Positions 13,520 to 58,978 are shown, numbered from the stretch's first letter. The stretch is DNA of 64,000 bases from Teretinema zuelzerae (GCF_021021555.1 NZ_JAINWA010000003.1:62001-126000), one strand, 5' to 3'. Notes: generated by a model from the letters alone, not told the origin. Numbers and translations are program-made.

Positions 13520-14026
13520 ATGAGAAAAGTGTTCCTGTGGTCCGTAATTACCGCGGTATTTCTTTCTCTGGTTGAAATAACCGTTTTTTCAAATTTTCCC
13601 TTGCTTCCGGCGATCCCGGATCTTGTTCTTATTCTCGTTGTATATGTCTCGTTCATGAACGGTTCGGTAGCCGGATCGTCTTCAGGTTTTCTGTCAGGAT
13701 TATTGCTGGATTTCATTTCAGTCGCTCCGATCGGTTTGAACGCGTGTGTTCAAACGATATCGGGTTTTGTTTTCGGAAAATTTACTGGCTCCTTCAATTT
13801 GGATCGCGTTGTCATCCCTATGATGATGGGCGCATTTGCGACCGGGTTGAAAATCGCTTCGACTTTTTTTCTTTCGCTTTTATTCGGAGAAGGAGTCAGA
13901 AGTTATTCTCTGTTCTCTTCAGTGCTTTGGTATGAATTGCTCTTTAATTGCATCTCTGCGCCGATTTTGTTTTTCATTTTTTCGCGTTTTCAAACATTAT
14001 TCATCGCGGATAGAGCTTCTTCATGA
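13520..14026 (+). CDS. mreD: Rod-shape-determining protein MreD
   Basis: 168 residues from ATG 13520; an in-frame TTG at 13511 inside mreC is less likely. It is almost entirely hydrophobic, with about five membrane helices and the LPAIPDLVLILVVYVSF and GFLSGLLLDFIS segments typical of MreD. It is a polytopic inner-membrane partner of MreC. Its stop overlaps the PBP2 start by 4 nt (ATGA). Confidence 0.9.
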   Translation: MRKVFLWSVITAVFLSLVEITVFSNFPLLPAIPDLVLILVVYVSFMNGSVAGSSSGFLSGLLLDFISVAPIGLNACVQTISGFVFGKFTGSFNLDRVVIPMMMGAFATGLKIASTFFLSLLFGEGVRSYSLFSSVLWYELLFNCISAPILFFIFSRFQTLFIADRASS

Positions 14027-15873
14027 ATGATTCCGATTCGCGGGCAGTAAAAGTCCGGATACTGACTTCTATTATATTTCTTTTAATGACCCTCTACTTG
14101 TATAAGCTATTTTCAATGCAGATTCTTCACGGTGAGGCGTATCGGAAGCAATCTCAGAATATTTCGCAGAGGTCGAAAAAAATTCCTTCGCAACGCGGAG
14201 AAATTTTTGATCGAAACGGCACAGTTCCGATGGTTCTGAATATCGATTCATTCGCAGTCGACGTTACCCCTGGAGAAATTCCCTCCGATCAAATGTTGAC
14301 GGTTCTTTCTTCCTTAAGCGAAATCTTGCAGGTTCCTGTTTCTTCTCTGGAACAAAAAATACCATTATCGATACGAAGATCGTATCAGACCATTGACGTT
14401 AAAGCGAATGTCCCGTATATCACAATAACCCGTATCGCAGAACGCATGGATGAATTACCCGGCGTTTCGTGGCATTCAAAACCGATACGAAACTATGTAG
14501 AAAGCGGTTCCATCTCTCATGTGTTGGGATATGTCGGCGACATTACCCGGGAAGAGCTTAAAATATATTATAACAAAGGCTATACGAACAACAGCATCCT
14601 CGGAAAAGCAGGCATCGAAAAGCAGTATGAAGAATTGCTGCGCGGAACCGACGGCTTCGAATACCGCACTGTCGACGTAAAAGGCCGTATAATCGAAAAC
14701 ACTTCCGCTGTGAAGCCTCCGGAAATGGGGAAGAACCTTATTCTGACTATCGATAGTAAAATACAGGCTTTGGCGGAGGACGCACTCGGAAACAGGATCG
14801 GATCTGCTGTTGTACTAAAAGCGTCAACCGGAGAAGTTCTCGCAATGGTTTCCTATCCGTATTTTGATCCTAATCTATTCAATCGTCCGGATTCGAACGA
14901 TCAATACGTCAAGCTCTTGAACGACAAGAACAACCCCTTGCTTAACCGTTCGGTAAACGCCAGTTATCCGCCAGCTTCGACATTCAAGATCGTTATGACG
15001 ACGGCCTTGCTTACCGAGGATCTGATTCCTCCTGAAAAAACAATCGACTGTCTCGGCGAAATCGAATACGGCGACCGCGTTTTTCGCTGTCATATCCGCA
15101 GGCCCGGACACGGACCGGTTGATTTAAAAAACGCGCTGGCTCAATCATGTGATGTATATTACTGGGTTACCGGTAGAGATTATCTCGGTGTAGACCGCAT
15201 CGCTTCCTATTCCGCTGAGTTCGGCTTCGGCTCATCGGTTGAAATCGATCTGCCGAGCCAAACGCAAGGATTCATTCCGACTCCGCAGTGGAAGGAGCGG
15301 CGTTTCCATGAACGCTGGCTCGGAGGCGATACGATGAACATGTCTATCGGACAGGGATTTTTTCTTGCTTCTCCACTTCAGGTAGCGAACATGGTCGCGA
15401 TGGTTGTGAATAACGGAGTTATTTATAAGCCTCATCTTTTAAAAGAAGTCCGGGATCCCGTTACGAATTCTGTCATATCCCGTGAGCAGCCGAGCGTTTT
15501 GCACAAGTCGAACATATCGCCTGAAGTATTTTCTACTGTCAGGGAACATATGCGTTATGTAATAACGAACGGAACTGCGCAGTTTCCGATGAAAAATAAA
15601 ACAGTGCAGTTGGCCGGAAAAACAGGAACAGCTGAAGTCGGTCTGCTCGACCGCTGGCATTCATGGATGGTCGCTTACGGTCCATACGACGCCCCCGCAG
15701 ACGAGGCAATCGTTGTAGTTGTTATGGTTGAAGCTTCGAATCCCTGGGAATGGTGGGCTCCGTACGCAACCAACATAATCTTCCAGGGCGTTTTTGCGGA
15801 TCAAACCTACGATGAAGCGGTCGGCGATCTCGGCTTTAAATATTTGTCAGGCCCGCGAGGACGTCAGGAATGA
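14023..15873 (+). CDS. mrdA: Penicillin-binding protein 2 (elongasome transpeptidase)
   Basis: 616 residues. After an N-terminal membrane anchor (about 12-33) comes the pedestal domain with RGEIFDRNGTVP, then the transpeptidase domain with its three motifs: S319-T-F-K322, S375-C-D377 and K533-T-G535. It cross-links peptidoglycan during elongation, working with the glycosyltransferase RodA. Four-base ATGA overlaps with mreD and rodA imply coupled synthesis in fixed proportion. Confidence 0.97.
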   Translation: MNDSDSRAVKVRILTSIIFLLMTLYLYKLFSMQILHGEAYRKQSQNISQRSKKIPSQRGEIFDRNGTVPMVLNIDSFAVDVTPGEIPSDQMLTVLSSLSEILQVPVSSLEQKIPLSIRRSYQTIDVKANVPYITITRIAERMDELPGVSWHSKPIRNYVESGSISHVLGYVGDITREELKIYYNKGYTNNSILGKAGIEKQYEELLRGTDGFEYRTVDVKGRIIENTSAVKPPEMGKNLILTIDSKIQALAEDALGNRIGSAVVLKASTGEVLAMVSYPYFDPNLFNRPDSNDQYVKLLNDKNNPLLNRSVNASYPPASTFKIVMTTALLTEDLIPPEKTIDCLGEIEYGDRVFRCHIRRPGHGPVDLKNALAQSCDVYYWVTGRDYLGVDRIASYSAEFGFGSSVEIDLPSQTQGFIPTPQWKERRFHERWLGGDTMNMSIGQGFFLASPLQVANMVAMVVNNGVIYKPHLLKEVRDPVTNSVISREQPSVLHKSNISPEVFSTVREHMRYVITNGTAQFPMKNKTVQLAGKTGTAEVGLLDRWHSWMVAYGPYDAPADEAIVVVVMVEASNPWEWWAPYATNIIFQGVFADQTYDEAVGDLGFKYLSGPRGRQE

Positions 15874-50662: not shown

Positions 50663-52558
50663 TCAGGCGTCGATTTTAAGAAACAGCATTTTCTCGGTTT
50701 CGAAATTAGGCCCTAGTTCAACCTTCCAATACAGATAAAGCCGTACGCCGCCTTTGTCCAGTATCGGAACAAGAGTCGCTTGCGGATTCTCATTCGCCTC
50801 GAAGGTGAAATGGCTGCCGGATTCCGGATCGTCGAGACGAATCCAGGACAAATCCGAAAAACTGCTTTGTTCCGCAATGCCTTCTATCCGATTATCCTGT
50901 GCATACGCCGCCATGGTTGGAATCATGTTTTTGAAACCCTGCAGGGCTAAATCGATTTCGATGAGAAATATGCCTGAAATATTGAACGGACTGTCATTTT
51001 TGAGAATGTATTGAACTTGTATGCCTTCATTCCGAAAGGAAAAAGTTTTCTTCAACGAAACGGGCTGTTGAAAAATTCCGAATAAGCCTGAAGCGCGCAG
51101 AGAAACTTCATGGCGCGCCGCGTCGACCGATAATTCCTGATACAGGCTTTTAGCGAATACCGGAGGCGAATCGGGCAAGGTTCCGTTTTCGATGTTTTCA
51201 GATTCTTCCGAAGGATACAGATGATCGATGAAAAGTCCAGAACGAGATATATCTACATCGCTATAGTTTTTATGCAATGAAAGTATATCCAACTCGAAAA
51301 TTCTTCCTCCGAGGGGATGAATATAAAAATTCAGGTTTTCGAGCTGGCAAAGGTATTCTTTCAAACCGTCAAGATCGAAATCGAAACTGTGAATCGAGGG
51401 AGCAAAAACGCCCCTGAGGCGCGACATTCTTTCCGCAGCCAGTAAATTCTTGTAGGCTGCCAACCGTAGCTGGCGAGGCGAAACAGCTTTTTCATGAGGA
51501 GGTATCTTAGTTCGATAAATGAACTCGTTTTGCGCTTTCCATAGTTCTTCTTTTCCCGTTTTTCTCCGCGCCTTATCGCCTCTCAAAAGGGTTACCAGTG
51601 AATGAACATACATCATTTTCGCGTAAATATTCATGACGTTGTCGGATTCAAGCAGGAGATACTTTACTGAAGTTCTGGCGAGAAATCTCACGTCGTCCGG
51701 AGCTTCAACCTTGTCGTAGTCGTACGGCGACATGCCTGAGGGGAGAAATGCTCTGTGCAGCATAGTTTGAGATTTTAAAATCTGGCCGGGAGTGCTCAGC
51801 ATAATTTTCGACTCGGATTCCTGAACAGCAGAATAGAATTGCGTTATCCATGGTTCCTGCTCCCCGAAAACAGGCGTAAAAATTGCATCAATAGATTCGC
51901 GCTCGATAAATACAGTAATGTTTTTTTTGATCTGATCATCGGGGTTGCCCGTGATGGATTCGATAAAAGACCGGACTGAAAATCGCTCCAGATTTCGGTA
52001 TGTGTTATCCATAGGAACGGCAATGATCGTTTTTCCGCTGTCTTCGAGGATTACCGGATTAAGACCTGTAACGCCGGGAAAATCGCTTGTTTCGATCATG
52101 AGCCTGTCTATGAGGACATATTCCATGCAGCAGGACGTCAACGAGGCAATCATCGAGGGTTCCCATGCGCTGGCAGGGAGCCATGCGCCTCTCGGCCTTT
52201 TTCCGAAATTCTTCCTGATCGCCGTCGTAAGCATTTCTATCTGGCCTACCCGGTCTATGGGCGGCAGAAAAGGAAACAGCGGAGAATAATACCCTCCCCC
52301 AAGAATTTCAATTTGCTTTCGCGAGGTCATCTCCTCGAGAATCATAAAGAACTCAGGATGATGGCGTTCAACCCATTCGCAGAATATTCCGGTTAATGCG
52401 ATCGAGAAGGGAAATTCAGGCAGGTTATAGAGAGCCGAGACCAGGGGCTTATAGGAGTTTTGATATATTTCTTCGCAGTCTTTTGAATCTAGCCCCGCCG
52501 GGAAAGCGCAACAAGTGCCGAAACACAGCTGGATATGTTTTGCCTCGTTTTTCACCAT
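50663..52558 (-). CDS. GH57-like protein (alpha-amylase/4-alpha-glucanotransferase family), catalytic residues altered
   Basis: 631 residues from ATG 52558, which overlaps the RnfB-like stop (TGATG). The N-terminal half follows GH57 (IQLCFGTCCAFPAGL, ILGGGYYSPLFPFLPPIDRVGQIEML, RGAWLPASAWEPSMIASL), and the beta-rich rest resembles DUF1925/DUF1926. In active GH57 glucanotransferases the motif reads WLxERVW with Glu as nucleophile; here Ala occupies that position. The acid/base segment, normally FGDDGEK, is replaced by FGEQEPW. A non-catalytic or very different activity is therefore likely. It is the last gene of the Rnf-like operon. Confidence 0.8.
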   Translation of the reverse strand: MVKNEAKHIQLCFGTCCAFPAGLDSKDCEEIYQNSYKPLVSALYNLPEFPFSIALTGIFCEWVERHHPEFFMILEEMTSRKQIEILGGGYYSPLFPFLPPIDRVGQIEMLTTAIRKNFGKRPRGAWLPASAWEPSMIASLTSCCMEYVLIDRLMIETSDFPGVTGLNPVILEDSGKTIIAVPMDNTYRNLERFSVRSFIESITGNPDDQIKKNITVFIERESIDAIFTPVFGEQEPWITQFYSAVQESESKIMLSTPGQILKSQTMLHRAFLPSGMSPYDYDKVEAPDDVRFLARTSVKYLLLESDNVMNIYAKMMYVHSLVTLLRGDKARRKTGKEELWKAQNEFIYRTKIPPHEKAVSPRQLRLAAYKNLLAAERMSRLRGVFAPSIHSFDFDLDGLKEYLCQLENLNFYIHPLGGRIFELDILSLHKNYSDVDISRSGLFIDHLYPSEESENIENGTLPDSPPVFAKSLYQELSVDAARHEVSLRASGLFGIFQQPVSLKKTFSFRNEGIQVQYILKNDSPFNISGIFLIEIDLALQGFKNMIPTMAAYAQDNRIEGIAEQSSFSDLSWIRLDDPESGSHFTFEANENPQATLVPILDKGGVRLYLYWKVELGPNFETEKMLFLKIDA

Positions 52559-53163
52559 CACCTCGACTTTCCGTTGATTATACCCCAAGTGGACAGTATT
52601 TTAAAGCGGGTTTCAGGAAAGTTTTTACGCTCTATGAGACAGCCGTGGTCAGCGGTTGCGCAAAATGCAAACTGCTCGTTATGTCCGCTTACCGGGCAAG
52701 TCCAGGACGAAGCTGATTCGATCGAAACGAGCGATATCAGATTTTTCGGACACATTCGAACGCAAGTACCGCATCCAGTGCATTGTTCAGTAACGAAAAT
52801 TCTTCCTTTTTTTAAGATTATCGCATCGGATGGGCACGCGACAGCGCAGGATCCCAGGCCGAGGCATCCGTAACGGCACATGAGATTACCCTGGAAGACC
52901 TTTGAAAGGGTGCTGCAATTCATATATCCTGAAACAGAAAAAAACTCAGGAGATTCAGGAGAAATTCTGTCGCAATGAATAATCGCTTTCATCTTTTGCG
53001 GATCTGCATGAACTATCGAATCGTCCTTCGGAAAAGCAGCAGGCCGAATCGATTCTGCTTGATTCCGAACGCCCAGTTTATGAAAGAACAGAAATAATAA
53101 AAAAACCAGGACTAAAAGCGACGCAAAAACGAGCAGCGCGGTAAGAATTGCTGTAAAAATCAT
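52558..53163 (-). CDS. rnfB: RnfB-like ferredoxin subunit lacking the Fes domain
   Basis: 201 residues. An N-terminal membrane helix (about 4-28) is followed directly by IIHCDRIS and MCRYGCLGLGSCAVACP plus QCTGCGTCVRMCP, the two 4Fe-4S ferredoxin motifs of RnfB. The Fes/C-x2-C domain that usually sits between the helix and this region in RnfB is missing. A further CPVSG ... CATADHGC set lies near the C-terminus. It would be the membrane-bound electron-carrying subunit. The start overlaps RnfA-like (ATGA). Confidence 0.8.
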   Translation of the reverse strand: MIFTAILTALLVFASLLVLVFLLFLFFHKLGVRNQAESIRPAAFPKDDSIVHADPQKMKAIIHCDRISPESPEFFSVSGYMNCSTLSKVFQGNLMCRYGCLGLGSCAVACPSDAIILKKGRIFVTEQCTGCGTCVRMCPKNLISLVSIESASSWTCPVSGHNEQFAFCATADHGCLIERKNFPETRFKILSTWGIINGKSR

Positions 53164-53723
53164 TTAAAAGCCTCTTCAAGCCACCATGACGCTTCTGTTA
53201 CGTGAAGAACCATGAATAGCATCCCTAAAGATATAAGGGCAAGAGGAGCTCCCTTGAAATCGGCCTGAAGATTTGATTCTCTATAACGGGTTCTGATCGC
53301 TTTGAGAAGCACGATTCCTATAAGCAGCGACAGCATTGAAAAAAAGGAGATCAACAGGCACTCTTTGAAGCTTGTTCCCTCATGAAGCGAGAAAAAAACA
53401 ATGGCAAACAGATAGAATCTGTCGCTTGCGTTGAAACTTCGCATGCGCCGGCTCGCCAAGTTCAAGACGCCCTGGATAAGGCCGCACCCTAGAACAATAT
53501 ACATCGGCGCGAGAAATGAAACGCCGTGCGGCTGCAGGAGCGCAGAAAGAGGATAATACAATACCGCGACGCTGAGGATAATTTGAAAAAATAATAGAAA
53601 CAAATCTGCGCTGAGTTTAACGCGTGAACGCGAATCGATGAAGACTTTTTCTAAACCGATTCCGTATACGAGAAGTACCGATGAAGAGATGATATAGAAA
53701 ATAAATGTTTCAAAATAATACAT
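53160..53723 (-). CDS. RnfA-like membrane subunit
   Basis: 187 residues from ATG 53723, which overlaps the RnfE-like stop (TGATG). It has about six membrane helices, the RnfA/NqrE size and topology. Aligning by eye, the first cluster Cys of RnfA (G-L-C-P-F) falls on G-L-E-K-V-F and is lost. The second (TNCAVLG-like) is kept as C80 in IVLGCGLIQG. Assignment to RnfA rather than RnfE rests on gene order and this alignment and is only moderately sure. Confidence 0.65.
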   Translation of the reverse strand: MYYFETFIFYIISSSVLLVYGIGLEKVFIDSRSRVKLSADLFLLFFQIILSVAVLYYPLSALLQPHGVSFLAPMYIVLGCGLIQGVLNLASRRMRSFNASDRFYLFAIVFFSLHEGTSFKECLLISFFSMLSLLIGIVLLKAIRTRYRESNLQADFKGAPLALISLGMLFMVLHVTEASWWLEEAFK

Positions 53724-54304
53724 CAGGGCAATCTCCTGAGGGAACGGACTTTCCGTTGCACGTATTTTCCCGCCCACGTGATCAAACCGAGCAGAATGAG
53801 CGATCCGCCTGAAGTCGCCCAGAATCCAATGCCCCATTGCGGAAAAGCCGGCAGGATATGATGAATGATTAATCCTCCTTTTCCGGGGAGCGTAATCGTT
53901 CCCTGACCGATAAGCTCTCTAAACGCGGAAAATAAAATCATGAAAGGAATAAACGCGATAATCGGAGAAATATTGATTTTCTCCAGCGAGTAACCGTCAA
54001 TGCTGATCATCAATAAATACGAAAACGCGGATACGTACAGGTATAATGAAATGCTGGAAACAATCGTCGGGAAGAAAAAAGAGGCTATGCTCGAAAACAG
54101 AGCAACGCTTGCAGCGAGTCCTGACAATTCAATATACGGACCGACTTCAGGCGCGTCTATCTTTTTTACGATTTCGCGAAAGAAAATTCCCGCTGCAAGG
54201 TACCATAAAAAAGCGAGACCGAAAATTAACGCATACGCGAAATTCGAGGCGGCGGGAATGAGGGGACACAGGGCAAAAATAAAAATCACAGGGGTATTCT
54301 TCAT
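53723..54304 (-). CDS. RnfE-like membrane subunit
   Basis: 193 residues, about six membrane helices. The N-terminal NTPVIFIFALCPLIPAAS matches the NPV...GLCPLLA start of RnfE/NqrD and keeps Cys13. The second conserved Cys of the family (in the N-C-x-I-L-G segment of helix 4) appears absent; the protein has only this one Cys. In Rnf and Na+-NQR, two Cys from each of RnfA and RnfE hold an intramembrane 2Fe-2S cluster. Overlaps RnfG-like by 4 nt. Confidence 0.7.
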   Translation of the reverse strand: MKNTPVIFIFALCPLIPAASNFAYALIFGLAFLWYLAAGIFFREIVKKIDAPEVGPYIELSGLAASVALFSSIASFFFPTIVSSISLYLYVSAFSYLLMISIDGYSLEKINISPIIAFIPFMILFSAFRELIGQGTITLPGKGGLIIHHILPAFPQWGIGFWATSGGSLILLGLITWAGKYVQRKVRSLRRLP

Positions 54305-54768
54305 TTTGCGTCCTTTAGTTCGAGAAGGTCGTGCTTGAGCTTCTGTATCCTGAATTGAAGCAGCCTCTCGGAGAAGCCGAACCTTACCGGATCAAGACTT
54401 GATTCCGGAATTCCAGCCAGGGCGAGAAAACGCACGTCGTTATCATTTTTGTAATGGAATACTGCCGTATACGGCCCGGAATCGCCGGTGACGGGAACCG
54501 CGACGATCAATTCTCCGCCGCGGTTTTTTCCTTCAACCTTCCACGCAGTAATTCGGGAGATTCCGTTTCCCCTCAAATCGGTTTCTGACCCGGGAACGAG
54601 AGGAGGATTCGATATGCCGGCAATGGTTTTAGCAACCGAATTTCTCAAGTTTGCCTTGTAGTAGGGGGTAACGAGGAAATGAGCGGCTCCAATGATAAGG
54701 CATAGCAAGGTAACTAACAGAAGCGTATAGGTATACGCGACAAGGTTTTTTTTTGCATGTTCGTTCAT
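54301..54768 (-). CDS. RnfG-like subunit, truncated and without flavinylation motif
   Basis: 155 residues against about 190-220 for RnfG. A single N-terminal membrane helix (about 11-33) is followed by TPYYKANLRNSVAKTIAGI and a periplasmic beta-domain. The conserved S-G-A-T flavinylation site, to which ApbE/Ftp attaches FMN, is not found, nor is the GYGG segment. Family assignment depends partly on its place between the RnfD- and RnfE-like genes. Starts and ends in ATGA overlaps. Confidence 0.62.
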   Translation of the reverse strand: MNEHAKKNLVAYTYTLLLVTLLCLIIGAAHFLVTPYYKANLRNSVAKTIAGISNPPLVPGSETDLRGNGISRITAWKVEGKNRGGELIVAVPVTGDSGPYTAVFHYKNDNDVRFLALAGIPESSLDPVRFGFSERLLQFRIQKLKHDLLELKDAK

Positions 54769-55793
54769 CGGGTTTTGCTCCTGTCGACAAAGCGCCTGCT
54801 TTCAATTTTTTCGATGAAAGGAGCGATTGAATTCATCGCCAGCAACGTGAATATGCCTCCTACCGGCGTGCCCCCGGGACCGCATACAAGAAAAGCGGTT
54901 GCACCTGAGATGATTCCCATGACTATTTTCGCCTGCAGCGTCCTCGGATTCACAGAATAATCGCCTGCGAGAAAAAAAGCGATGAATAAAATTCCGCCGG
55001 TTAAAAGGCTGAATAATATATCTCCGCCCATGAATGCCGCTGTTATCGGAACCAAAGACAAGACGCGAACAGCGGCAGCGTAAGTCAGAATAAAAACAGA
55101 GGGAACGATCGCATCGATGTTTCTCATCGCAATCAAAAAAATGGAACTGATAAGGGTGAACACATTATATCTGAATGCAGGGATAGTCGAAGGAGAATTC
55201 CAAAAAAGGGTGATGTATCCTTCTGGAAGTTTAATGCCCAAATGCGACAGGAATCCTGTATTCAATTGGGATGTGATTATCGCGTCTTGAGGCAAAACCG
55301 CGAAATTATCGAGCTTCAAGGCTTCGAAAAAGGAGCCGACTCCGCGAACTCCCTCGATGGACACCAACTGTCCGGGAAATACATCGGGTCTGCTTATCCA
55401 TGCGATGCCGATCGCAACCGCTACGGGATGCATCCAATACGAACCGTTTCCGCCGAAAAGAACCCGCGATATGCACATTCCGATAAAAACCGAGCCGAAG
55501 GCGATTAAAGGCGGCATTACGGAAGGTAAAAGAAGGCCTGAAAGCAATCCAGCCAAAAGCACCGCCAACGGATCATAGACTTTCCTTCGGACGGTAAAAG
55601 AGAGAAAAACTTCGGATAATAGCGAGGCAGTTACAGAAACCGCTGCAATCAGAAGAGCCGCGAAGTCTCGATCGATAAGAATCATCATGACATGAGGGAG
55701 AAGACACAGAAGCGTCGTCAAATTCATGTTGTCTACCGTATTTCGAACGAGAATAAAAGGAGAGGGCGTCACTATCCATGGCGATTTTTTCAT
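54765..55793 (-). CDS. rnfD: RnfD-like membrane subunit without flavinylation motif
   Basis: 342 residues with about nine to ten membrane helices. The N-terminal SPFILVRNTVDNMNLTTLLCLLPHVMM and YDPLAVLLAGLLSGLLLPSVMPPLIAFGSVF are clear RnfD/NqrB features, as is FLAGDYSVNPRTLQAKIVMGIISGATAFLV near the end. The periplasmic loop that normally bears D-x-x-S-G-A-T (covalent FMN) reads DAIITSQLNTGFLSHLGIKLP and lacks it. The S-G-A-T seen near the C-terminus lies in a membrane helix and is not the flavinylation site. Confidence 0.82.
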   Translation of the reverse strand: MKKSPWIVTPSPFILVRNTVDNMNLTTLLCLLPHVMMILIDRDFAALLIAAVSVTASLLSEVFLSFTVRRKVYDPLAVLLAGLLSGLLLPSVMPPLIAFGSVFIGMCISRVLFGGNGSYWMHPVAVAIGIAWISRPDVFPGQLVSIEGVRGVGSFFEALKLDNFAVLPQDAIITSQLNTGFLSHLGIKLPEGYITLFWNSPSTIPAFRYNVFTLISSIFLIAMRNIDAIVPSVFILTYAAAVRVLSLVPITAAFMGGDILFSLLTGGILFIAFFLAGDYSVNPRTLQAKIVMGIISGATAFLVCGPGGTPVGGIFTLLAMNSIAPFIEKIESRRFVDRSKTR

Positions 55794-57094
55794 TCTGCGG
55801 ATTCCTTAACCATAAAAGAAGCTTCCCTGATTATATGATGGAGCGGTATTCGGGAAGGACACACCATCGCGCAGCAGCCGCAATGTTGGCAGCGTTCGCA
55901 AGATTCGATTAATTCGCGGGACTCATTGTTTTTGCGGATTCCCGCAGCCAGCTTCATCGGATCAAGATTCGCAGGGCACACGCGAAGGCAAAGCCCGCAG
56001 TGGATGCACTCCTTGGTTTTTTGATCCGGACTGGCGTCATGATCCAGTAAATGAACGGATTTTACCGACTTTGTTATGGGAGTATCCAGGTCGTGTATCG
56101 ATATACCGGACAAAAGGCCGTTAATAATGATTCTGCCGGGCTCGCTTTTAAAACCTCCGCATTCTTCTATAACGTCGCCGATAGTGGTTCCGATGCGGGT
56201 TGTAAAAAAGGACGTGCGCTGTACTGCCGGGCCGGTTACCAGAATCCGCTGCTGTACGATGGGCTGATTTTTTACGATAATATCGTATACCGATAATGCG
56301 GTAGATGGATCTATTACGATCCTGTTCGATGGTATCGATTCTTTCAATGAATCCAGTATATTGAAAATTCTGTGAATGTTTCCGCCTGGATATTTTTTTG
56401 CGGCTTTAACCGGAATAACGTCAGAAACAGGGAAAAGCTGCTCCAACGAGGTAGGCGATGCGACAGTCCATTGCTTGTCATGATGCAGGATGCACGTCGT
56501 TTTCGCTTCGAGTGCTTTAGCGATAATGGCCGCGCCGATTAACACATGGTCTTGAAACGAGTTCCACAGAAGGGTATCCAACATCGTAGTCGGATCTTCG
56601 TCGAACGCCCGCAGTATAAGCGCTCGCGTGGGTTCTTGTTTAAGGGCGCGCATTTGAGGAACAAGCGGGGCTCCCCCGTAGACGGTATTAACAGCGCCCC
56701 TGTCTTCCAGCAGCCTGAAAATTTCCGATACGGGCGATGACTGCCATGGATAGTGTTCCTCTTTTCGTCCCAGAATATCAAATGATCCTGAAAGATGAAT
56801 TACCGCCGCCAATCCGAGAGTTCCGTCGGGCAAAGACGTTTCTTTCCATGAATGGAGTATTCCGGGAATCGGCGCGTGAATATTCGAGGAAGCTTGGTCC
56901 TGAGACCGAGCGATGAGCTGCCCTTCCCTCACCCGATCTCCTGCGCGTATAAGGGGTCTGGCGTCTGAGCCCGCATGCTGTCGTACAGGAACAATCGCAG
57001 TAACAGGGAGAAATGCGTTTCCGCTGAAAGAAACTTCAGGCGTTTCAAACCAGATTTTTTCCCCTCCGCGGAGAAAGGGTATGTTTTGCATCAT
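55790..57094 (-). CDS. rnfC: RnfC-like subunit with eroded nucleotide-binding loop
   Basis: 434 residues from an ATGATG start overlapping the upstream stop. The N-terminus has IPFLRGGEKIWF and IVPVRQHAG ... AGDRVREGQLIA (RnfC barrel-sandwich). The C-terminus has two 4Fe-4S motifs, CIHCGLCLRVCPANLDP and CERCQHCGCCAMVCPSRIPL. The Gly-rich NADH/FMN loop (G-x-V-G-L-G-G-A-x-F-P-T) falls on RGAVNTVYGGAPLVPQ, with most glycines lost. It is the first Rnf gene of the operon and presumably the cytoplasmic electron-input subunit. Confidence 0.82.
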   Translation of the reverse strand: MMQNIPFLRGGEKIWFETPEVSFSGNAFLPVTAIVPVRQHAGSDARPLIRAGDRVREGQLIARSQDQASSNIHAPIPGILHSWKETSLPDGTLGLAAVIHLSGSFDILGRKEEHYPWQSSPVSEIFRLLEDRGAVNTVYGGAPLVPQMRALKQEPTRALILRAFDEDPTTMLDTLLWNSFQDHVLIGAAIIAKALEAKTTCILHHDKQWTVASPTSLEQLFPVSDVIPVKAAKKYPGGNIHRIFNILDSLKESIPSNRIVIDPSTALSVYDIIVKNQPIVQQRILVTGPAVQRTSFFTTRIGTTIGDVIEECGGFKSEPGRIIINGLLSGISIHDLDTPITKSVKSVHLLDHDASPDQKTKECIHCGLCLRVCPANLDPMKLAAGIRKNNESRELIESCERCQHCGCCAMVCPSRIPLHHIIREASFMVKESAE

Positions 57095-58491
57095 TCCTTC
57101 AGCCTCGTCATTGTTACAGTTGTAAAGCGGCCTTGATTCAAAAGCAGGATATCCAGGGGCGTTTGAACCAAAGAAAGAGCTTTCCGAATAAAATCATCAT
57201 CGAAAACTACCGGATGGCCGTTGCGGGAAACTATGCTGCCGTCGGATTCCATGTTCCATTCTTCAATGGATACAGAGTATCCCTTCTGAGGCGAAGGAAT
57301 AGCGTCGCCGATTCGGATCATCGAAGCCAGAGTCAGCATCCAATAAGTCTCGATATAATCTCCCAGATCGGGAAGACTTCGTTCTGTACGCTGATTCTGC
57401 AATTCCAAAAAACTCTTGACGGTAAAACCGTTTTGGGCATTATATCCCGAGGGCGACGGAATATACAACTGCTGAGGCAGCGATTGGCGAATGCCTCCGG
57501 AAACGAGTCGGGCGTTGCTCGAAATGAAAGGAATTCCCGTTAAAATAAACGCTATCGTAATCAAAAGGATGCCGAGAATAGTACCACGTTTATACGCCGG
57601 CACAATTGAAGCCGGCGACATGGGGATGGCGGTGAAAAAAGGGTGTAACCGTTTTCGCTCGCGTATTTCGGTCGCTTTTTGCTTAACGGAACGAATGCAT
57701 ACGAGCATGCCGGCGGATGAAATTACGGCAAGCATCCAAAGGAGCATTGTATGAGTACCTCCGAGAACTGCAAGTAAGAAAGCTGTCAGCGGCATCAGCA
57801 GGAAATACAGGGGTTTTATCGGATTGGTTCTCAAGTAGATCCGTAATAACGAATTATTGAGATGCTCGTATGTTTTATCTGTATACAAGATGAAGAGAAT
57901 ACTGAATAGTCCTGAGCCAAGGCCTTCCATAGTATTGCAGGACCACAAGTATACTATCCATGGACTGATTATCAAAACGAAGAAACACCGCTTTTTAAAG
58001 AGAAACATTCCTATAAGGATCAAACAAGCCGCGACAATCAACGGATAGGGGGAGTATCCCGGAGATTGTTCAAAAAACCACGAATCGACGATTCCGGCAA
58101 AAGCCTGTTGAATTTTTTTATCCGTCTGCTTGTCCTTTCCGGCGTTAGCTGCGCGCGGAATGTAAAAGTAGCGCAACCCATCAGGTTTCGATATGAACCA
58201 TTGCGACCGTCGGGAATTCGCTTCGTCGAGCACCGGATGAACCGGAACCATCGGATTAGGACTCGACAGCATGGAATTGGATTCAGTGACGCAGCCGTCG
58301 ATCCCCGCTCTCTCCAATCTATCCAATACGGTTGATTCCTCGATCGACGACCCGACGGCGAGTACACGGTAGCCTTTCCAGACGCTCGAGTACTTTCTGA
58401 CGGGGAATTGTACAAGACAAATAAATGAGAAAATGAGAAGAATGAGCGCTATGTACGGCGTTTTTTTGATTTTACCTGGAAAGATATTCAT
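57091..58491 (-). CDS. Polytopic membrane protein of unknown function, Rnf-linked
   Basis: 466 residues: an N-terminal helix (about 12-29), an extracytoplasmic domain (about 30-150), a cluster of about seven helices (150-340) and a second soluble domain (345-466). I recognise no family. It starts 7 nt after the PAP2-like gene, and its stop overlaps rnfC by 4 nt, so it is translated together with the Rnf-like genes and is a candidate extra subunit or assembly factor. Confidence 0.7.
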   Translation of the reverse strand: MNIFPGKIKKTPYIALILLIFSFICLVQFPVRKYSSVWKGYRVLAVGSSIEESTVLDRLERAGIDGCVTESNSMLSSPNPMVPVHPVLDEANSRRSQWFISKPDGLRYFYIPRAANAGKDKQTDKKIQQAFAGIVDSWFFEQSPGYSPYPLIVAACLILIGMFLFKKRCFFVLIISPWIVYLWSCNTMEGLGSGLFSILFILYTDKTYEHLNNSLLRIYLRTNPIKPLYFLLMPLTAFLLAVLGGTHTMLLWMLAVISSAGMLVCIRSVKQKATEIRERKRLHPFFTAIPMSPASIVPAYKRGTILGILLITIAFILTGIPFISSNARLVSGGIRQSLPQQLYIPSPSGYNAQNGFTVKSFLELQNQRTERSLPDLGDYIETYWMLTLASMIRIGDAIPSPQKGYSVSIEEWNMESDGSIVSRNGHPVVFDDDFIRKALSLVQTPLDILLLNQGRFTTVTMTRLKE

Positions 58492-58498
58492 GCTCGGG

Positions 58499-58978
58499 TT
58501 AAAGGACTGAGAAGGCTACCCCGATGAAAAAGCCGAGCAGAATGCCGGCCAACACTTCCATCGGTCTGTGCCCCTGAATCTCCTTAACCGGCTTGAATTG
58601 ATACCGGAACCTGGTAGCTACCTTCGTTCCAAGTTCGTTCAAGGCTCTCGCCTGTTGTCCGCTTGATCTGCGGACGCCTACTGCGTCGCGGATGACGACG
58701 AGAGCGAAGCAACAGGAAAAAATAAAAAGATCCGAACCGGCACCGCATTTAAAACCGATTGCCGTTGAAACTGAAGACACTAAGGCCGAGTGGCTGGAGG
58801 GCATGCCGCCGGTTTTCCAAAACAACAGCTCGATGAGTTCTTTCGCTGATCTGACTTCGTTCGTGAGGAGCGTTATGAGCGTTTTTATAAATTGACTTAT
58901 GATCCAGCTGGAAACAGCCGCCAAGAAAATGGGGTTGTGGATGAGAGTCTGTACCTGTTGCATCACCTTTTGATCCAT
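58499..58978 (-). CDS. Divergent PAP2-like membrane protein (DUF212/YuiD family)
   Basis: 159 residues with four to five helices. The family motif KTGGMPSSHSALVSSVSTAIGF and the later RDAVGVRRSSGQQARALNEL match DUF212, a divergent acid-phosphatase/VanZ-like group. The S-S-H-S core suggests a lipid or prenyl phosphate substrate, but activity is not established. ATG 58978 has no Shine-Dalgarno; a second ATG five codons in follows AAAGG closely and is an alternative start. It heads the Rnf-containing operon. Confidence 0.85.
   Translation of the reverse strand: MDQKVMQQVQTLIHNPIFLAAVSSWIISQFIKTLITLLTNEVRSAKELIELLFWKTGGMPSSHSALVSSVSTAIGFKCGAGSDLFIFSCCFALVVIRDAVGVRRSSGQQARALNELGTKVATRFRYQFKPVKEIQGHRPMEVLAGILLGFFIGVAFSVL

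Follow-up and report, generated by a model that had tools for sequence, protein, structure and literature searches.

An Rnf-like operon of Teretinema zuelzerae that appears to have lost nearly all cofactor sites, coupled to a putative GH57 pseudoenzyme

Results

Organization of the operon

The window analyzed here, a stretch of 64,000 nucleotides from Teretinema zuelzerae, carries a nine-gene operon on the minus strand (50663-58978) in the order DUF212, X466, rnfC-D-G-E-A-B, and GH57. All six Rnf subunits, whose presence in one operon is a feature of membership in Rnf, are encoded together. The features are as follows.

58499-58978, minus strand: DUF212 (divergent PAP2 family), which opens the operon here and in the syntenic loci (PF02681, 5.5e-42)
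57091-58491, minus strand: X466, membrane protein with two domains lying beyond the predicted TM bundle (AlphaFold, synteny)
55790-57094, minus strand: rnfC variant, two [4Fe-4S] sites kept, FMN/NADH loops lost (TIGR01945, 6.9e-62, below the cut-off; alignment)
56654-56698, minus strand: former FMN loop of RnfC, VNTVYGGAP versus canonical GMGGASFP (alignment)
55973-56008, minus strand: RnfC [4Fe-4S] ligand motif 1, CIHCGLCLRVCP, conserved
55856-55891, minus strand: RnfC [4Fe-4S] ligand motif 2, CQHCGCCAMVCP, conserved
54765-55793, minus strand: rnfD variant, covalent-FMN loop lost (PF03116, 1.5e-41; alignment)
55302-55361, minus strand: RnfD region expected to hold D-x-x-S-x-A-T-P-L (alignment)
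54301-54768, minus strand: rnfG variant, flavinylation motif and FMN loops deleted (sequence, AlphaFold model, fold searches)
53723-54304, minus strand: rnfE variant, Cys13 kept, second cluster Cys lost (PF02508, 22.7 bits; alignment)
53160-53723, minus strand: rnfA variant (187 residues), both cluster Cys lost (alignment)
52558-53163, minus strand: rnfB variant lacking FdI and FdIII, with two [4Fe-4S] motifs retained (alignment)
50663-52558, minus strand: GH57 pseudo-glycosidase, TGATG-coupled to rnfB (PF03065, 2.5e-25; alignment to 1k1w)

ATGA or TGATG overlaps occur at every junction from X466 to GH57. The sequence-only reading of this DNA had described the rnfC-D-G-E-A-B order with such coupling, and both are indeed intact across 52558-57094; the coupling extends beyond the rnf genes, to X466 (57091-58491) on the upstream side and to GH57 on the downstream side (TGATG at 52558). 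The start of RnfA lies at 53723, which gives 187 residues, and not at 53837. In the Pfam/NCBIfam searches, RnfA and RnfG had no Pfam match, and the RnfE score for PF02508 fell just under the cut-off of 23.8 bits. In DUF212, the PSSH, RDAxGVRR, and GHxP motifs are invariant across the scored loci.

Loss of cofactor sites

As reported, the reference sites are Cys25/Cys113 of RnfA, Cys26/Cys109 of RnfE, Thr164 of RnfG, and the FdI domain of RnfB, which is the reductant of RnfA/RnfE (PMC9588780), while RnfC holds FMN and two [4Fe-4S] clusters and RnfD holds riboflavin and FMN (PMC12174285). We scored these sites in a table of 126 loci, among them 39-42 distinct Treponemataceae-type loci.

Based on the alignments, the FMN sites are missing from all three subunits that should carry them. 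The RnfG protein of the window (155 residues) has no SGAT flavinylation motif, and S/T-G-A-T/S was found in 0 of 42 Treponemataceae-type loci. Its AlphaFold model (pLDDT 90) shows a TM helix, a five-stranded sheet, and a C-terminal helix. Because the best solved neighbors of the model in both fold searches are RnfG chains, the short protein is read, on this predicted structure, as an RnfG that keeps the fold and lacks the FMN-holding loops. Similarly, despite a clear PF03116 match, the RnfD protein of the window lacks the D-x-x-S-x-A-T-P-L loop, and D-x-x-S-x-A-T is absent from all 39 Treponemataceae-type loci scored; many Gly, Pro, Trp, Asn, and Asp positions of RnfD are invariant across the scored loci. 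Furthermore, the GMGGASFP and PSGGLPSA segments of RnfC, which form the FMN/NADH loops, are gone from the window protein, and the Gly pair scored in RnfC is found in none of the 42 Treponemataceae-type loci.

For the intramembrane [2Fe-2S] cluster, the window retains one of the four RnfA/RnfE cysteines. RnfE has the first ligand, Cys13 (ALCPLIP), and lacks the second, whereas RnfA has neither, and its cysteines (LGCG, KECL) lie off the ligand positions. Among the Treponemataceae-type loci, the RnfA cysteines were kept in 0/41 and 0/41, and those of RnfE in 16/42 (first) and 1/42 (second). The iron-sulfur sites of the cytoplasmic subunits are better preserved. The eight [4Fe-4S] cysteines of RnfC are kept in all 42 Treponemataceae-type loci and in all 125 loci overall, and RnfB of the window keeps two [4Fe-4S] motifs and has lost the N-terminal FdI cluster, which was present in 0/24 Treponemataceae-type loci; in another 18 of the 42, no rnfB was found. 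Cys and His are not well conserved in any column of RnfA, RnfE, RnfD, RnfG, or X466 (best fraction 0.47), which argues against a replacement metal route.

Displaced cysteines or a displaced SGAT were ruled out: when every subunit was aligned with its counterparts in canonical and intermediate loci, the residues proved to be missing rather than shifted. The losses are more than a chance finding, as they are repeated throughout the 39-42 distinct Treponemataceae-type loci scored. Collectively, among the sites scored, only the cytoplasmic [4Fe-4S] clusters of RnfC and RnfB appear to remain. The sequence-only reading had correctly noted the short RnfG without S-G-A-T, the missing RnfD loop, and the single, first cysteine of RnfE; it erred in assigning RnfA a retained second cysteine. 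Its statement that the ferredoxin clusters remain holds for RnfC and for two RnfB clusters and fails for FdI, and it overlooked the lost RnfC loops as well as the state of GH57.

GH57 and X466

The GH57 protein is homologous to the GH57 4-alpha-glucanotransferase 1k1w over about 430 residues (6.9e-32). Residues E123 and D214, which we take to be the catalytic nucleophile Glu and the acid/base Asp of GH57 (1k1w numbering), are both replaced in the window protein: Ala stands at the first position, and the second aligns to Arg (phmmer) or Glu (MAFFT). Among the Treponemataceae-type loci, E123 is lost in 33/36 (kept in 3/36) and the E123-D214 pair in 36/36; among the basal loci, the Glu is kept in 14/24 and both catalytic residues in 5/24. 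The dN/dS of GH57 in close pairs is 0.06-0.14, indicating that purifying selection persists. These substitutions predict that GH57 is a pseudoenzyme, catalytically dead.

X466 (466 residues) has no Pfam family and no credible NCBIfam match. Its AlphaFold model (pLDDT 86) shows a weak resemblance to the RND superfamily (best Z 7.1; Foldseek best E 3.9e-3), which is below the reliable range, and the fold searches yielded no reliable match. Synteny of X466 holds in the fetched Treponemataceae loci other than that of genome G020.

Conservation, selection, and the canonical copy

Another contig of the T. zuelzerae genome carries a canonical rnfCDGEAB operon with all four RnfA/RnfE cysteines, the STATPL motif in RnfD, and two FMN_bind domains in RnfG; the second copy that the sequence-only reading wished to see sought is therefore present. 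With its two FMN_bind domains, this RnfG (L004:7586-8713) would be a multi-flavinylated RnfG. A canonical RnfA/RnfE pair lies elsewhere in the genome in 18 of 19 Treponemataceae genomes checked. Separately, genome G045 has fourteen FMN_bind matches, most in ORFs of about 590-750 residues, which would represent an expanded set of flavinylated proteins.

The variant is widespread: relatives of the window RnfE occur in 148/195 Treponemataceae genomes, and profile matches of the variant RnfD in 61/61 sampled. The order DUF212-X466-C-D-G-E-A-(B) is constant in the fetched loci and is followed by GH57 in most. Across seven close pairs and all subunits compared, dN/dS was 0.04-0.34. On this basis the operon is under purifying selection as a unit, as had been supposed, and is not simply decaying; a pseudogene was ruled out by the same values, and recent local degeneration by the universal presence of the variant in the sampled family. 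Divergence is faster than in the canonical copy, with identities between related genomes of 22-38% (variant) versus 43-72% (canonical).

The ORF of rnfD, GH57, or rnfC is split in a few genomes of treponemes (Brucepastera, G043, G009, and G063; loci L106:10314-11341 and 13565-15459, L049, L063, and L068), from sequencing error or local loss. In Brucepastera the affected genes are rnfD and GH57, and in G043 rnfC is affected. Some lineages may thus be able to do without the operon.

Probable stepwise origin from a GH57-linked Rnf

In other spirochaetes, a GH57-linked locus encodes a fully canonical Rnf, in many cases with X466. In a tree of RnfC and RnfD from which the cofactor columns had been removed, the GH57-linked loci form one clade (SH-aLRT 99), which includes a few loci where no GH57 was seen. 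Cofactor-complete members lie near its base, mixed states lie between (L159, L111, L116, L095, L098, L118, and L122), and Treponemataceae form one group (support 100), in which only the RnfC clusters, of the scored sites, are kept throughout. The fewest changes on the tree are four for the RnfC FMN site, five for the RnfA/RnfE cysteines, seven for the RnfG motif, and three for the RnfD residue. The stripped operon thus probably descends from the GH57-linked Rnf of other spirochaetes, which has every site, through such intermediates.

In five loci (L159, L111, L116, L095, and L152, the last with a split RnfC ORF), the RnfC FMN site was scored as lost and the RnfA/RnfE cysteines as kept, which suggests that NAD(H) reactivity may have been lost first; the reverse pattern occurs in three loci, and in one of them, L037, it probably stems from the scoring itself. 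Moreover, some GH57-linked loci have no RnfG, RnfE, RnfA, or RnfB: L139 (8839-13328) consists of C-D-GH57 only, and L147 (6268-12934) and L148 (6265-12931) of DUF212-X466-C-D-GH57. The membrane relay is hence dispensable in the GH57-linked locus, and from this composition RnfC, RnfD, and GH57 look like its core. Three further GH57-linked loci (L120:5817-14690, L133:157-5936, and L143:27-6715) keep the four RnfA/RnfE cysteines, with no rnfG found between rnfD and rnfE.

The operon in a probable Treponema pallidum genome

The original assignment of the T. pallidum RNF genes is reportedly that of Deka in 2015. A noncanonical, flavin-based RNF has been proposed for this organism (PMC7512555, PMC11717252). 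Since rnfD of genome G020 (173910-174905) coincides with tp0151, placed at 174174 in T. pallidum (PMC7162541), we take G020 to be T. pallidum. This genome has only the stripped operon, which is devoid of rnfB and X466, and no PF02508 match was found anywhere in it, hence no canonical RnfA/RnfE. One ApbE gene is present, and both FMN_bind matches of the genome lie outside the operon. With TP0151 at the position of the G020 RnfD, the proposed noncanonical RNF is presumably this same operon; a flavin-based pump was proposed, whereas the required sites are absent from the sequence, and the RNF of those reports would have to function without the known cofactor sites.

Discussion

The stripped complex shares with Rnf (RnfABCDGE, ferredoxin:NAD+ oxidoreductase; 7ZC6, 8AHX) the subunit set and order, the RnfD family, the RnfG fold, and the two [4Fe-4S] motifs of RnfC. 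In contrast, it has no FMN site in RnfC, RnfD, or RnfG, no [2Fe-2S] ligand set, and an RnfB without FdI, and its operon is coupled to DUF212, X466, and GH57. By the established mechanism, electrons cross the membrane twice; because the three FMN sites, the full RnfA/RnfE ligand set, and FdI are missing, this known double crossing would be impossible, in line with the earlier suggestion that such a complex could not use the known path for electrons. We are therefore highly confident that the complex is not a transmembrane electron pump, and by its membership features it should probably not be classed as one. In the open-access literature searched, we found neither the cofactor-poor operon nor its link to GH57 described.

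Taken as a whole, the best explanation is an exapted, selected descendant of the spirochaete GH57-linked Rnf that has lost nearly all cofactor sites, an account that we hold with about even confidence. The loss of the sites is well documented, and the new role is one that we infer. RnfC, anchored by RnfD, would carry the [4Fe-4S] clusters at the cytoplasmic face, and the redox or assembly state of these clusters could set its conformation, as in a redox- or iron-responsive element. RnfA/RnfE/RnfD, RnfG, and X466 might relay or anchor this signal across the membrane, and the dead GH57, together with DUF212, would be the partner acted on. The complex would work as a retained protein scaffold, as NqrA does inside NQR. 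NqrA is a cofactor-free homolog of RnfC with a retained non-redox role (PMC12174285, PMC4014512), having lost FMN and kept a structural function; it has lost its Fe-S clusters too, in a complex whose other subunits retain their cofactors, whereas the stripped complex is the reverse. An electron carrier would also keep invariant Fe-S motifs, and we hold the scaffold or sensor role with somewhat less than even confidence. Equally tentative is the broader picture in which an entire redox complex of the respiratory type has become an Fe-S-gated membrane machine that does not pump and is paired with an inactive glycosidase, the sole Rnf remnant in T. pallidum.

The sequence-only reading had left room for a new electron route or for something else; the search for replacement metal sites lends no support to the former, and the latter fits better. 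A new route could nevertheless be purely cytoplasmic, from the RnfB clusters to the RnfC clusters and a soluble acceptor, with RnfD as the anchor. The strict conservation of both RnfC and two RnfB [4Fe-4S] motifs would suit it, yet the loci where RnfB was not found include G020, the FMN/NADH loops of RnfC are lost, the published RnfB-RnfC distance is about 25 Å (PMC9588780), and the other membrane subunits would be conserved for no evident reason; we regard this route as unlikely. Improbable, too, is a cofactor-free channel or transporter for ions or small molecules, formed by RnfA/RnfE/RnfD and gated by the Fe-S subunits. RnfD has been proposed to contain a gated Na+ channel and RnfA-RnfE to form an alternating-access core (PMC12174285), and the invariant RnfD positions and the weak RND likeness of X466 point the same way; however, that likeness falls short of the reliable range, and the related L139, L147, and L148 clusters have no RnfA/RnfE. 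The flavin-dependent RNF published for T. pallidum, with non-covalent flavins or RnfD riboflavin and a flavodoxin partner, can draw on the ApbE/Ftp gene, but it would have to do without covalent FMN sites in RnfG and RnfD, RnfC FMN loops, [2Fe-2S] ligands, and, in G020, RnfB, with the FMN_bind proteins encoded elsewhere; we consider it very unlikely. Finally, the decay of a redundant Rnf copy into a relic, to which the faster divergence and split ORFs might point, is hardly credible given the dN/dS values, the universal presence in the sampled family, the intact coupling, and the retention in a reduced genome of 1.14 Mb.

The operon also forms a natural evolutionary series, along which the cofactor sites of a redox pump disappear step by step and its protein scaffold stays, and this series would let the structural, regulatory, and redox roles of the Rnf subunits be told apart. 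For T. pallidum, whose energy metabolism has been modelled around such a pump, the site losses challenge the published flavin-based RNF model; if the sole rnf-like genes of this organism lack the required cofactor sites, the model would need another source of the ion gradient.
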